Part shown: positions 2,230 to 15,930 of the stretch, one piece after another | How positions within the stretch are numbered: position 1 is the first letter of the stretch | Layout of the letters: each line of letters starts with the position of its first letter | NCBI GenBank assembly: GCA_020283715.1 | Contig: JAIQCW010000043.1 | Span: 1-15,930, forward strand | From: Cytauxzoon felis | Lineage: Eukaryota > Apicomplexa > Aconoidasida > Piroplasmida > Theileriidae | Reading direction: 5' to 3' | DNA length: 15,930 nucleotides | Made by a program: the position numbers and the translations under genes | Notes under the pieces: generated by a model | Told to the model about the DNA's origin: nothing | The model's database searches: none | Seen by the model: only the letters and a program-made list of their open reading frames with translations

Positions 2230-2241
2230 ATGTTTAAATGA
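2230..2241 (+). promoter_or_regulatory. Minimal upstream ORF overlapping the bystin start
   Basis: ATG TTT AAA TGA begins 8 bases before the bystin ATG and its stop overlaps that ATG (ATGA). If the mRNA leader includes position 2230, it would be a three-codon uORF that ends where the main frame starts. That would permit termination-reinitiation. Whether it is transcribed is not known from the sequence. Confidence 0.3.
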
Positions 2242-4644
2242 AGGTTAATAAAAAATCAAATGGAGGTAAAAACTCCAAAAAGGTCAAAAAGGACATTAAT
2301 CGCAATAAGAAGAACAATAAACAGAAGTTGAATGAGGACGAATCTGAAATTTCTGATATTGAAGCGGAGTATTTCGATGATATACCATCGGATATAGCAG
2401 TAAATGTACGTCGTTTATTAAGAGAAGACGATGATGAACATGAAGAGTAGGTATTTAATAATAGAGATTATGATGACTACTAATTGACAAGCATATATCC
2501 TATTTTATTAATGAGGATATTTATAGTATCTGAATCTATAACATTTGATATTTAATATATTTTTTATAGATTTGATGTTGATCCGGGTCTGGAATTTTTA
2601 AAAGATGATCCATTGATTGATTCTAGTATATCGCATATAGGATTTTTACCTGATGATAAAAATATAGTTGATACAACTTTTTTATGGAACAAGTTGAAGG
2701 CAACAACTGAATCGCAATTTGTAGAGGTTTGTTTAATGTTATTATCATTTAATATTAATAGGATACTAATTTGATTAAAATAAAATCAGTATATAATGAA
2801 GTTGGTATATATTTATCTAGATATAAAAGTGGTGGATTACCTAAAGCATTTAAAGTATTACCTAAAATGAAAAATTGGATGACATTATTAGAATGTACTG
2901 TACCCAATAATTGGACACCTAATGCAATGTCTGAAATTACTCATTTATTTGCATCCAATATGAATGAAGCTACGGTATGAATAAGATTTTATTTAATATT
3001 TTTTTAAATATAATTTTATAGGTTGAAATATTTTACACTACAATTCTACTACCATCTATTAGAAAAGATTTAACAAATAAACGTACATTAAATTATCATT
3101 ATTATATGGCATTAAAAAAAGCTATGTTTAAACCTAGTGCATGGTTTAAAGGAATATTATTACCACTTGTACAAGAGGTATGAAATTTCTAATTAAATGA
3201 TGATTGATACTCTGACAGTCTTAATTTTATATGTAGACATTTATTTGTATCGCCCCAGTCTGATTATATATAAAATATATACATTTTAATTATTATTTAG
3301 GGATGTACATATAGAGAAGCATCTATTATCGGTAGTATACTAAAAAAATTATCCATACCCAGATTACATGTTGGAGCATTCATCATCAAAATCTGCAAAT
3401 GTACCAAATGGTTCGGTAGCACCAGCTTTATACTCTCCATCCTACTACAAAAAAAAATCAAATTCCCCAATAAGGTATCTTTAATCTTTATATCTTGAAT
3501 ATACTCCACTTGAGGTTACATCATCCTCTCTTCATCCTGCCGTCAGCTCCTTTTATTTACTTCTCCCTACGCTTCCCTGAGATCAGCTACGGGTTCCATT
3601 TGAGGTCTCCACTTGAGGTCCAATCACTGTTTTCCACTAGTTTCATTTTAGTACCAAAATTTGAAGGAATTTCATCATTTCTGAGGAAACTAATGAAAAT
3701 ATCTCAATGGATATTGGATGTATTTCTAATGTCAATACGTCATTGAAGAGGGATAGTATCGCTTCATCTATTTTTATCATCCTCACTTCATTTCATATTG
3801 TATCACTGAGATATCTCCTTTAACATGAATTCCATCACTTTATTCGTATCTCGTCGAGATTAGATTTATAACCTCAAGTGGAACCTGGAAGCGATCTACG
3901 GGAGCTGGAAGGGGAAATAAATAGAAGAGCTGTCTGCAGGACGAAAGAATAGTTGGATTGGACCTCAGGTGAAATGACTTCGTGTGTAGATGTAGTTGTT
4001 TGTTTATTTAATTATTATTTTAATGATGATTAATGACCATTGTCAGTTCTGCTACTGAACATGATGTTGATAAATGGTCTTATCTGATATTAATTGCAAG
4101 GTCACTCTGATGTTATAATTGTTTTATATATCATCAATTTTCGCTTTGCTAAATTGATTGATCAGATTATTATATGTGGATTATATAGTGACTATATATA
4201 TATCATTATATTAATGATCTACATTAATATATATAGGTGATTTCTGAATGTGTTGGTTATTTCTGTAGATTTGAGGATTATAATGATCAGTTGCCTGTGA
4301 TTTGGCATCAATCATTATATGTTTTCGTATTGAATTATAAAGGTTTGTTAATGTATAGAAGTTTATATTATATGATGACGATTATTTTTATACGCTAGAC
4401 TATTTAGTCTGTGATGCTATAAACAAGTTATCCCTGTCTGACTTTATGATATACAATTTGTATATATTACTATCTTCTGCATATAACGTCGTGTTTACTT
4501 CATATGTCTTCTGTAGGATACTTGAGTAGAGTGGAGGTCGATTCATTGGGGAGGTTATCATCTAATCATAAACACCCGCAAATAACACCACTAATAATGA
4601 AGGAATTATCATGTACAGTTAATGATGTTGTAATTTATATGTAA
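2238..4644 (+). CDS. BYSL: Bystin / Enp1, 40S ribosomal subunit biogenesis factor
   Basis: Exons: 2238-2446, 2570-2726, 2762-2974, 3022-3177, 3301-3474, 4237-4342, 4517-4644; 380 residues. All junctions keep frame. After a Lys-rich then acidic N-terminus, exons 3-7 give the bystin core: [89 protein letters not shown] and [12 protein letters not shown]. Each has an obvious counterpart in human and yeast bystin. The family binds pre-40S particles in the nucleolus and acts in 18S rRNA maturation and export. It is a little shorter than human (about 437 residues), mainly at the N-terminus. The four long introns each contain a box C/D snoRNA-like structure, and intron 5 also carries a repeat. Donor 1 (GTAGGT) is chosen because reading on would hit TAG at 2448. 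Confidence 0.93.
2465..2537 (+). ncRNA. Box C/D snoRNA candidate in bystin intron 1 (U27/snR74-like)
   Basis: C box ATGATGA at 2470-2476, C'-like ATGAGGA at 2511-2517, D box CTGA at 2530-2533. AGAT/ATCT flanks can close a short terminal stem. Bases 2486-2496 (GACAAGCATAT) are perfectly complementary to AUAUGCUUGUC near the 5' end of 18S rRNA. With a degenerate D' (CCTA, 2499-2502) the fifth-base rule points at the A equivalent to yeast 18S A28. From memory that is the target of yeast snR74 and human U27. The host gene is also a 40S assembly factor. The D' box is weak, and the D guide (2518-2529) has no target I recognise. Confidence 0.72.
3192..3268 (+). ncRNA. Box C/D snoRNA candidate in bystin intron 4
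   Basis: C box ATGATGA at 3197-3203 and D box CTGA at 3260-3263, with short A/T flanks able to pair. The guide directly upstream of D, TGTATCGCCCCAG (3246-3258), pairs over 13 bases with the conserved LSU rRNA segment CUGGGGCGGUACA, using one G-U pair. The fifth base before the D box faces the second G of CUGGGG, the predicted 2'-O-methylation site. Another CTGA at 3212 lies too close to the C box to leave a useful D' guide. I recall that yeast snR190 acts near this LSU region, but that is unverified. Confidence 0.75.
3506..3970 (-). repeat. Dispersed modular repeat, copy R3, inside bystin intron 5
   Basis: Inverted full-length copy of R1. Forward anchors CCACTTGAGGT lie at 3506 and 3608, and inverted anchors near 3868 and 3959. 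The left arm (CCTCTCTTCATCCTGCCGTC) and right arm (read on the minus strand as CTTTCGTCCTGCAGACAGC) are diverged versions of one module, giving an imperfect terminal inverted repeat of roughly 80 bases. The core matches R1, including the TCTCGTCGAGA-like palindrome, here TCTCGACGAGA on the minus strand. It explains most of the 762-base intron length. No clear target-site duplication is visible. Confidence 0.82.
4018..4092 (+). ncRNA. Box C/D snoRNA candidate in bystin intron 5 (U38/snR61-like)
   Basis: All four boxes are visible: C ATGATGA 4023-4029, D' CTGA 4055-4058, C' ATGATGT 4061-4067, D CTGA 4084-4087. The D' guide CATTGTCAGTTCTGCT (4038-4053) can pair over 16 bases, two of them G-U, with the LSU rRNA stretch AGCAGAACUGGCGAUG. 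The fifth-base rule selects the A in AGCAGAAC. From memory this is the region methylated under yeast snR61 (25S A1133) and human U38. The D guide (about 4068-4083) has no target I recognise. It lies in the unique part of the intron, right of the repeat. Confidence 0.8.
4366..4448 (+). ncRNA. Box C/D snoRNA candidate in bystin intron 6
   Basis: C box ATGATGA 4372-4378, C'-like GTGATGC 4411-4417, D box CTGA 4438-4441. The guide AGTTATCCCTGT (4426-4437) abuts the D box and is perfectly complementary over 12 bases to ACAGGGAUAACU, the conserved LSU rRNA sequence near the peptidyl-transferase centre. The fifth base points to the second G of the CAGGGA run. I recall yeast snR38 (Gm2815) as the likely counterpart, unverified. 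The terminal stem is imperfect. Confidence 0.78.
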
Positions 4645-4750: not shown

Positions 4751-5141
4751 ATGGCGGTCAAGAAAGAAATGAAAAAGGAGTCTTTAAAATCTGGTATTTC
4801 AGGTGAGTTTCATAAGCCGATCATCAACATCATCAATATTCACAGTTGGTTTATCAAGAGGCCATACTGTTACTCCTATACCATTGGTTAGATCTGTTAG
4901 ACCAAGTCGTAGAAAGGGTATGAAAACAAATCGCTCTGCCTTAGTTTCAGAAGTTATACGTGAAGTATGTGGTTTCGCTCCATATGAACGTAACATGATT
5001 GAATTACTCAAGGTTGGATCTGCATCTACACAAAAACGTGCATTTAAATTTGCTAAAAAACGTCTTGGTACCCATAGAAGGGCAAAAGCCAAGTTGAATG
5101 AGATGATGGGTGTAGTGGAAGCACAACGTAAACGTCGTTGA
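4751..5141 (+). CDS. RPL36: 60S ribosomal protein eL36 (RPL36)
   Basis: Two exons, 4751-4802 and 4846-5141, joined across a 43-base GTGAGT...CACAG intron; 115 residues. The splice gives the family's start region, [17 protein letters not shown]. This is followed by [40 protein letters not shown] and a basic C-terminus QRKRR. These match the conserved GLxKG, SPYERR and KRLGTxxRAKxK blocks of eL36. The family is a small basic component of the large subunit. The ATG at 4751 is preceded by an A-run (TATAAAAATGG), a good eukaryotic start context. It follows bystin by 106 bases on the same strand. Confidence 0.95.
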
Positions 5142-13344: not shown

Positions 13345-15649
13345 ATGGAAAATAGGCGATCATCGGCACAACCTGGTCAAAATTTTCGTCAGAATATGAT
13401 TTTTGGTATATATTATTAATAGATTGTATTAATTTTTAGATTATGGAGATGATGATACTGTAGTAGAATCGAGTTTATGGAGTAATATAAAGTTTTTATT
13501 TCGTGATTTTTTCCCGGACAATACTCCTATAAATTTTACATTGATACAGATGTTGACTGTATTTGTATTTTTATGTTTTAGTCCTTGTATGTGTAATGAT
13601 ATATTATATGATATTATATATTTTAGTATCATTTCCTGAATTTGATAAAGAGTCTGGACCAATTCATGAAGATGGTCCTGGTATACTTCGTAATTTTGTA
13701 TTTATATCTGTATGTTTGATAACTATTATATTCATATATGTCTTCAAGGGTTATTCTAATCCTGATGAATCACAATCTCAATTAATATTTAATACTGTTC
13801 TTTATCTTTTATCAATGCTTATTTTGAATTATATCACCCTTGTATTCATATTATTATCTAGGTATATTTGCTTTTAATATATAAAAAATTTTTCTCCCTT
13901 GTAGGTTCATTATATTAAGATGTGTAACTGAACCATTGTATCATATTTCAAGACATGCAGTAATTATAACATATTCATTAGATCCATATATATTTTATTG
14001 TATTTGGTCAATATTAAATTATAGTTTATTCTTACGCTTTATAAAACCATGTAAGTAATAATAATAAATTTTATATATTAAAAATAAAATTTTTTCAGCT
14101 ACATTAGATGATATATATATAGTTTATAAATTATTTGCATTTGGTGATTATTATTCACATTTATTTTGGATAGATGATAGATGTTATATTTATTCTAATT
14201 CATTATATTATCTTCATATATTATTATGTGTAAGGAAACTTATATTATCTACATTATTATTTATATTTGAATTACAATTCTTAACAAATTATACAACGGA
14301 TTTAAAATTATATTTATCTGAAGTTTCAATATTAAAGAAATTTAATAACGCTTGGTACATATATTTTTTTTTCTTATTGGAGGAAAAATTTTCTTCCCTT
14401 CATTTTATAATTCTATAGGTATCAATATGTAGATGGTGTTAGACGTGATGTTAATGATAATAATAAAATGAATCAGATTGTTATTAAATATTTAATGGCT
14501 GATATGCCAGCTAATATAAATAAAAGTTATAATACAAAATTATTTTTATATACTAAAGATGATTTTAAAATTTTTAGGCATGTTTTTATTATATATAAAA
14601 TTTTAATCTATTACTATAGACCTATTATAACTAAATGGAATCATCATAAAACACATCATAATATTAATCTTAATAATGATAATATGATCGATTTTATTAA
14701 AGATAAATGGATTAAAATGTCATCTAATAATTTAATCATCAATTGGATACTATTAAATTTTGTTATACATAACCCACCAACTCTACTATTACTCAATTGC
14801 TCCATCGAATTATTACATCGAAATACCGTAGATGTATGCTCAAATCTACTCTTTAATCAAATTCATGATACACTATCAATATATGATGATGATAATCAAC
14901 AAAATATATCAAATGATAATACAAATACATCTCCTCCACCTGAGGTCCAATCCACATCTTTTCGTCCTGCAGACAGCTCTTCTGATTACCTATCTCTAAA
15001 GAGTAAAACCACTCCCGGAGATCGTGAAGTGAAATTTTCTCCACCTGAGGTTACAACCTCGCGTTCTCCTGCAGAGAGCTCTTCCAATTACCTATCCCTG
15101 AAGGGTAATGCCACTCCCGGAGATCGTGGCGAAGATGAAGGTGATGTAGAAGGTAGTGATGGAGCTAGAGTTAGTACTGGACCTCGAGTGGAACCCGTAG
15201 CTGATCTCAGGGAAGCGAAGGGGGAAGTAAATAAGAAAGGCCACCACGGCGAGTGGAAGACCTCAAATGGACCTGATCTCAACAATGTAACATCGGATAT
15301 AGAGCATGAAAGTGACATTGGTGGTGATTTGAGTAGTGAGTTATTGAAATTGCAATCGAAGGTATCTGAGATGCCATTGATAATGCGTTATAAATCGACT
15401 ATACATCCGAAGATGTCGAGTAAGAAATGTTTAAGTATATTAAAGAGGAGTGTAAATGTTACATTTGATGAAATTGATGATAATAGATTTATTACAAAGA
15501 AAATGTGTCAATTTATAAATCCAACAATTGTCGATGATTTCTTCTCAAGCTATGATTATGCCAACTGTGGATCCATCTCATCCTCAAATTTTATCAGAAA
15601 TATCACATATATGTGCTCCATACGTAAACGACTCATCACCAGACTCAAG
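13345..15649 (+). CDS. Multi-span membrane protein with EF-hand, probable MscS-like mechanosensitive channel, partial
   Basis: Exons seen: 13345-13405, 13440-13586, 13627-13861, 13905-14050, 14099-14354, 14419-15649 (phase 0 end); about 690 residues, continuing past the window. The N-terminus MENRRSSAQPGQNFRQ is followed by hydrophobic spans (FTLIQMLTVFVFLCFSP, FVFISVCLITIIFIYVF, LYLLSMLILNYITLVFILLS, AVIITYSL...FYCIW, YLHILLCV...LLFIFEL). The last exon ends with DDFFSSYDYANCGSISSSNF and then IRKRLITRLK, like the EF-hand that precedes the pore domain in eukaryotic EF-hand MscS channels. The MscS domain itself is not in the window. The EF loop is poor in acidic ligands, so calcium binding is doubtful. 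A stretch of about 110 residues (from about 14936) is repeat-derived. The ATG is chosen because an in-frame TAG lies 18 bases upstream. Confidence 0.65.
14936..15270 (+). repeat. Dispersed repeat copy R4, inside the open coding exon of the channel gene
   Basis: Anchors CCACCTGAGGT at 14936 and 15041 (105 bases apart) and the inverted ACCTCGAGTGG at 15180. Segment 15041-15133 is nearly identical to the reverse complement of 1594-1697, and 15177-15255 to 581-661. Here the repeat is read without stops. Two tandem translated units share PPEV, SSS(D/N)YLSLK and TPGDR. The segment is richer in G+C than the flanking Asn/Ile/Lys-rich coding DNA. Confidence 0.8.
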
Positions 15650-15930
15650 GTTTGTTCATCTTTATATGTAACTCTCCACCTGAGGTCCAATCCAACTCTC
15701 TTCCTCTTGCAGAGAGCTCTTCCAATTACCTATCTCTAAAGAGTAGAGCCACTCCCAGAGATCGTGGCAATGTGATATTGTGGGGGAATGTAGGGGTAAA
15801 AAACACTATAATCCCACAATATCTGATAAAAAACACCATAATACCCCACCTTAGGTTACCTCTATCAACAGTCCAACCTCATTTCGTCCTGCCGTCAGCT
15901 CTCCACCTGAGGTTACAACCACTGTTCCAC
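15650..15930 (+). repeat. Dispersed repeat copy R5 at the right window edge (channel intron 6 or exon 7)
   Basis: After the likely donor AAG|GTTTGT at 15650, repeat anchors CCACCTGAGGT occur at 15676 and near 15900, with a diverged CCACCTTAGGT near 15846. 15676-15770 is a third close copy of the unit seen twice in R4. Between them lies an 11-base inverted repeat, GATATTGTGGG (15774-15784) and CCCACAATATC (15813-15823). The frame starting at 15676 is open to the window end, so part of this could be coding. It continues beyond the window. Confidence 0.7.

Follow-up and report, generated by a model that had tools for sequence, protein, structure and literature searches.

A bystin/ENP1 gene of Cytauxzoon felis with a candidate box C/D small nucleolar RNA in each of its four long introns

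The bystin gene and the contents of its introns

This study focused on a stretch of 15,930 nucleotides (nt) from the piroplasm Cytauxzoon felis (positions 1 to 15,930 of contig JAIQCW010000043.1, forward strand, assembly GCA_020283715.1), referred to below as the window. Near its left end lies a gene for bystin, also known as ENP1, and each of the four long introns of this gene carries a candidate box C/D small nucleolar RNA (snoRNA; Table 1). Of the GT/AG splice-site combinations compared around six junctions, the model adopted is the one with the longest frame, and has introns at 2447-2569 (123 nt), 2727-2761 (35), 2975-3021 (47), 3178-3300 (123), 3475-4236 (762) and 4343-4516 (174). The runner-up specifies 378 amino acids (aa) and has a second intron of 41 nt. 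Residues 124-370 of the predicted protein belong to the Pfam family Bystin (PF05291), with an expectation value (E) of 1.1e-93 and 314.2 bits against a cut-off of 28.8. Its nearest named relatives are the bystins of Theileria and Babesia, the closest being that of Theileria equi (58% identity; 54-58% across the four named Theileria bystins), and several of the relatives with a Bystin domain carry the name "essential nuclear protein 1". The search for protein relatives found no near-identical protein, and no bystin relatives were found in viral contigs.

A box C/D pair was defined as a C box of the form RTGATGA with a CTGA 50-110 nt further on. On the sense strand there is one such pair in each long intron, and the box scan found none in the short introns of 35 and 47 nt. 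The C box is ATGATGA in all four candidates, and all four have a D box CTGA near the 3' end. In introns 1, 4 and 6 the distance to the 5' splice site is 19-29 nt for the C boxes, and that to the 3' splice site is 36-75 nt for the D boxes. The intron 5 candidate has a second CTGA (4107-4110) as a possible alternative D box. The CTGA of intron 1 is the terminal D box, and its D' box is a degenerate CCTA, which corrects an earlier reading. For the intron 6 stretch, the predicted fold closes an outer stem. Box C/D pairs alone prove little. A control sample of 100 kb, taken from ten 10-kb contig starts, contained 9 qualifying pairs in 200,000 strand-bases, a lower rate than that of the window, so the window itself is rich in such pairs. 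Over the 1,264 nt of sense intron, about 0.29 pairs would be expected at the window rate and 0.06 at the contig-start rate, and four were observed.

Table 1. Coordinates of the features discussed. Positions are those of the window, except for the last three rows, which refer to a second locus of the assembly (L042).
Feature	Position	Strand	Details
Bystin/ENP1 gene, start to stop codon	2238..4644	+	7 exons, 380 aa; from spliced frame, Pfam match and identity to Theileria bystins
C/D candidate, intron 1, SNORD27/snR74/PFS4 type	2470..2533	+	C box 2470-2476, guide 2486-2496, D' box 2499-2502, D box 2530-2533
Intron 2	2727..2761	+	35 nt, without box C/D pair
Intron 3	2975..3021	+	47 nt, without box C/D pair
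C/D candidate, intron 4, snR67/U31/PFS5 type	3197..3263	+	C box 3197-3203, guide 3250-3259, D box 3260-3263
Dispersed element with inverted ends	3500..3985		Makes up most of the 762-nt intron 5, within its first half
C/D candidate, intron 5, snR61/U38/PFS6 type	4023..4087	+	C box 4023-4029, guide 4038-4053, D' box 4055-4058, D box 4084-4087
C/D candidate, intron 6, snR38/PFS7 type	4372..4441	+	C box 4372-4378, guide 4426-4437, D box 4438-4441
snR56/PFS10-like C/D candidate	L042 2091-2012	-	Rfam E 0.078 (weak); shared words with PFS10
snR39b/PFS8-like C/D candidate	L042 1819-1736	-	Rfam E 0.069 (weak); shared words with PFS8
U18-like C/D candidate	L042 1564-1505	-	SNORD18 match

A search of the window against Rfam at E up to 5 gave nine matches, which include snR61 (4018-4090), SNORD27 (2465-2537), TBR7 (3194-3266) and R38 (4403-4486), each of them in a different long intron. 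The families SNORD121A, snoR117, MIR8024 and sR7 also matched in this window-level search, and intron 1 is overlapped in addition by weaker matches of SNORD121A, R38 and snoR117. The four families were searched over the 8.62-Mb assembly, with the best 57 to 64 candidates scored per search, and each of them ranked its own bystin intron first: intron 1 for SNORD27 (RF00086; E 3.3e-4, next 0.19), intron 4 for TBR7 (RF00295; E 0.019, next 0.98), intron 5 for snR61 (RF00476; E 6.2e-7, next 0.028) and intron 6 for R38 (RF00213; E 0.064, next 0.64). The R38 match uses a C/D frame different from that of the candidate boxes. Seven loci behind sub-threshold places of three families (L024-L027, L029, L030 and L032) were without any Rfam family at E up to 1. 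As all four matches score below the Rfam gathering scores, the candidates are described here as relatives by guide and host and not as members of the Rfam families, and it is the convergence of four families on one gene that carries the weight, rather than the individual scores.

The pairing of the guides was examined with segments of yeast ribosomal RNA (rRNA), using yeast numbering, the fifth base upstream of box D or D' being taken to face the methylated base and G-U pairs being counted. All four guides pair in register over at least 10 nt: that of intron 1 forms an 11-bp duplex with 18S A28, that of intron 4 a run of 10 pairs, including two G-U, with G2619 of the large-subunit (LSU) rRNA, that of intron 5 a run of 16 pairs, including two G-U, with LSU A1133, and that of intron 6 a 12-bp duplex with LSU G2815, directly before box D. 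Shuffled guides reached the same run in 0, 19, 0 and 1 of 20,000 trials each for introns 1, 4, 5 and 6, respectively, and in the control by position, which covers introns 4, 5 and 6, none of the 123 other registers reached the in-register run. The initial annotation had listed intron lengths of 123, 35, 47, 123, 762 and 174 nt, C/D boxes in all four long introns with the short ones empty, and a guide complementary to rRNA in each long intron; the lengths are reproduced exactly by the best, 380-aa model, the box scan confirms the second statement, and the third is borne out for all four introns by in-register pairing with the yeast rRNA.

When the antisense words of two guides were looked up in the assembly, the one for intron 6 turned up solely at the guide itself. 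The one for intron 1 has four occurrences, of which one is the guide, and the other three places have no gathering-level Rfam match and do not resemble 18S rRNA by eye. As these antisense words yield no rRNA, the rRNA genes are probably absent from this assembly. Two rRNA words gave no match in viral contigs.

The corresponding guides of Plasmodium falciparum and a second linkage at eL8/RPL7a

In Plasmodium falciparum, three box C/D RNAs, PFS5 (LSU Gm2619), PFS6 (LSU Am1133) and PFS7 (LSU Gm2815), sit in introns of PF11_0105, the Enp1 homologue (Mishra et al. 2009, PMC2656528), and a fourth, PFS4 (Am28 of the small-subunit rRNA), is listed there as intergenic, on the same chromosome and strand and about 3.4 kb upstream of PFS5. 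The paper confirmed expression for 14 of its 18 P. falciparum RNAs, and states that 16 of the 18 were also reported by Chakrabarti et al. The arrangement is therefore already known in Plasmodium, and the present case is a further lineage.

Of the 18 P. falciparum C/D RNAs in that paper, 16 were compared with the candidates by means of composition-weighted words shared inside the RNAs. Exact words shared between the whole window and the 16 RNAs had been dominated by A+T-rich words, and the weighted words were used instead. Among the 16 RNAs, the best matches of introns 1, 4, 5 and 6 are PFS4, PFS5, PFS6 and PFS7, respectively. The intron 1 candidate and PFS4 have TTGACAAGCATAT in common, the intron 5 candidate and PFS6 CAGTTCTGCT, and the intron 6 candidate and PFS7 AGTTATCCCT, the last standing just before box D in both.

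The two species thus have the same host gene and the same four guides, and the coordinates printed in PMC2656528 put all four P. falciparum RNAs on one strand. They differ in that the A28 guide lies inside intron 1 here but in an intergenic position in P. falciparum, and in the guide order, which is A28, G2619, A1133, G2815 here and A28, G2619, G2815, A1133 there. The distance from box to splice site is 19-75 nt in introns 1, 4 and 6, whereas it is given as more than 100 nt for the intronic RNAs of P. falciparum except PFS16. According to the equivalences in the same source, the guide targets are also those of yeast snR74, snR67, snR61 and snR38 and of human U27, U31, U38 and snR38; in yeast the first three are polycistronic and snR38 is intronic, while the human counterparts are all intronic. 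What is apparently new is the piroplasm case, the position of the A28 guide inside intron 1, the reversed order of the A1133 and G2815 guides, and one more shared linkage, that at eL8/RPL7a. Among open-licence papers, PMC2656528 was the sole one found on ENP1, snoRNAs and Plasmodium, and no snoRNA study of any piroplasm was found by title or abstract start.

The second linkage emerged from a search of the assembly with SNORD18, which gave a good match (E 4.1e-4) on the 3' side of a gene of the Pfam L7Ae family (L042 3040-2240, minus strand; E 1e-23), which we take to be eL8/RPL7a. Searches of the assembly with SNORD24 and SNORD35 gave no clear match (E 0.22 and 0.72). Candidates resembling snR56 and snR39b lie between the eL8-like gene and the U18-like RNA, on the same strand. 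The RPL7a gene of P. falciparum is followed downstream by PFS8 and PFS13 (U18), in a cluster with PFS9 (PMC2656528). The two loci are alike in having snR39b/PFS8-like and U18-like RNAs 3' of the eL8-like gene, here on the same strand, and unlike in that an RNA of the snR56/PFS10 type comes first in the present genome; the U49 (PFS9) family is without a match in L042 (3,069 bases, E up to 1). This is probably a second host-guide linkage common to P. falciparum and the present genome, although by shared words the U18-like RNA is closest to PFS17, with PFS13 outside the top three. Between two of the candidates, at about 2000-1890 on the minus strand of L042, there is also a hairpin, G+C-rich at its ends and with ATATTA after it, possibly an H/ACA RNA as judged by eye; H/ACA families are absent from the nine Rfam matches to L042 at E up to 1.

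Bystin as a host of guide RNAs

It is very likely that bystin is a conserved host of four C/D guides, which would be released from its introns and direct methylation at A28, G2619, A1133 and G2815. The gene model, the boxes, the resemblance of the guides, the first ranks in the assembly, the register against yeast rRNA and the match to P. falciparum all point in this direction. The bystin pre-mRNA would be spliced and the four excised introns debranched, exonucleases would trim these to the box C/D cores protected by C/D proteins, and the resulting guides would direct 2'-O-methylation of the 18S site and the three LSU sites; expression, processing and release from the introns, and methylation, are steps that we infer from the known pathway. 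The initial annotation had seen in the gene a 40S assembly factor that would couple the supply of guides for 18S and 28S modification. The host interpretation stands, as by Rfam rank and register bystin looks like the host of four guides with 18S and 28S targets, but since only one of the four targets 18S and three target the large subunit, the idea that a 40S factor provides the guides for its own subunit is weak and too narrow. A coupled supply of the predicted guides through one transcript is plausible, and it is safer to think of an expression shared with ribosome assembly as a whole. The doubt expressed at that stage, as to whether bystin was known as a multi-snoRNA host in apicomplexans, is answered by the earlier report of ENP1 in P. 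falciparum (PMC2656528).

Several observations weigh against this interpretation. The register was read on rRNA segments of another organism, yeast. In the intron 1 candidate the first two guide bases are unpaired and the D' box is degenerate (PMC2656528 names deviating D' boxes for PFS9, PFS10, PFS15 and PFS16), and the intron 4 guide, when read without its box as anchor, has a longer run of 11 pairs, out of register, in the A1133 segment. The four Rfam families were picked because they hit the window, and none of the matches reached its gathering score (36.8 bits against 52 for SNORD27, 43.8 against 45 for snR61, 25.8 against 45 for TBR7 and 28.5 against 45 for R38); two of the four are weak (TBR7 and R38), and in prokaryote controls sub-threshold hits, none over the cut-off, occurred at loose limits in 4 to 10 of 14 genomes. 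The terminal stem scores of the candidates are 5, 3, 2 and 1, all below the score of 6 for an antisense box pair in the repeat of intron 5, and the z-scores from energy folding (-1.40, 0.01, -1.69 and -1.32) have little discriminating use here. In the comparison with P. falciparum, the intron 4 candidate and PFS5 have just GCCCCA (6 nt) in common and the match is narrow (16.7 bits, with 15.6 for the runner-up), the last two guides are in swapped order, and the three ENP1 RNAs are differently localized among Plasmodium species (PMC2656528).

The box pairs are also common in the window, where 11 C boxes qualify on the two strands, four of them belonging to the bystin candidates and seven lying outside the four cores. 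This would be expected if A+T-rich introns simply produced ATGATGA and CTGA and the guide-like words were coincidental, but such an origin for the whole set is extremely improbable, as the whole-assembly rankings bring four guide families together on 2 kb of 8.6 Mb, shuffled guides reach the observed pairing in at most 19 of 20,000 trials, and this set has also been reported for ENP1 of P. falciparum. A narrower version, in which only some of the four are functional and one or two of them (intron 4, intron 6) have decayed or resemble guides by chance, could draw on the weak matches to RF00295 and RF00213 (E 0.019 and 0.064), the other C/D frame of the R38 match, and the 6-nt match to PFS5. We regard it as unlikely, given that introns 4 and 6 both have ATGATGA and CTGA with a guide directly upstream of box D and in register, both come first in the assembly for their own family, and both have as their best matches P. 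falciparum RNAs of the same host.

With these four guides reported within or beside the ENP1 gene of Plasmodium, their linkage to this gene probably predates the split between haemosporidians and piroplasms. From this we infer, somewhat tentatively but as the favoured account of ancestry, that ENP1/bystin was an ancestral snoRNA host of both groups, and that its snoRNA cargo may explain which of the longer introns survive in such compact genomes. The snoRNAs might instead have entered bystin independently in Plasmodium and in the present lineage, ribosome-biogenesis genes being favoured hosts, and the different order of the last two guides, the intergenic position of PFS4 and the varying locations among Plasmodium species (PMC2656528) would agree with this; it seems improbable all the same, as the four guides are found together at a single gene, and RNAs resembling snR39b and U18 stand 3' of eL8/RPL7a here, just as PFS8 and PFS13 lie downstream of it in P. 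falciparum. If ENP1/bystin was indeed the ancestral host, then these four guides have remained linked to a single gene for an assembly factor, in the present genome within introns made up of about 45 nt plus a snoRNA, and eL8/RPL7a is a second shared linkage. The analysis provides four named candidate guides and methylation sites for a piroplasm, and suggests a snoRNA-host gene linkage common to malaria parasites and piroplasms.

Intron sizes, the dispersed element and the neighbouring gene

Introns 1 and 4 correspond to a snoRNA plus 46-49 nt, and intron 6 leaves 94 nt beyond the snoRNA. Introns free of snoRNAs measure 35 and 47 nt in bystin, and in two neighbouring genes the models that score best put them at 31-44 nt. 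This offers a simple rule: where a ribosome-biogenesis gene of these compact genomes has an intron of some 120 nt, that intron may represent a minimal intron plus a snoRNA.

Most of intron 5 is taken up by the dispersed element. Its 12-nt motif CCACYTGAGGTY has 6,816 occurrences in the 8.6-Mb assembly and none in a reversed control. All 40 of the scored candidates (of 2,683 from a first look, and including this copy) match over at least 372 of 486 bases, with 77-100% identity, and the inverted self-match is present in the intron 5 copy and in all six other copies examined. Within the intron 5 copy, at 3583-3678 on the minus strand, there is an antisense pair of C/D-like boxes, whose stem score is the highest in the window and which is taken as part of the dispersed repeat. 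No transposable elements had been found in Theileria, according to PMC2612703, against which a family resembling miniature inverted-repeat transposable elements or foldback elements, at such a density, would be unusual for a piroplasm.

The dispersed element, about 0.45 kb long, is also found at 228-642 of the window, with pieces at 1424-1700, 1910-1998, 14934-15133 and 15674-15768. The last two pieces fall inside an open frame (14411-15739, plus strand) or at its end, and the element may have become protein-coding there. Directly downstream of bystin, at 4751-5141, is a gene for ribosomal protein eL36, with an intron of 43 nt.

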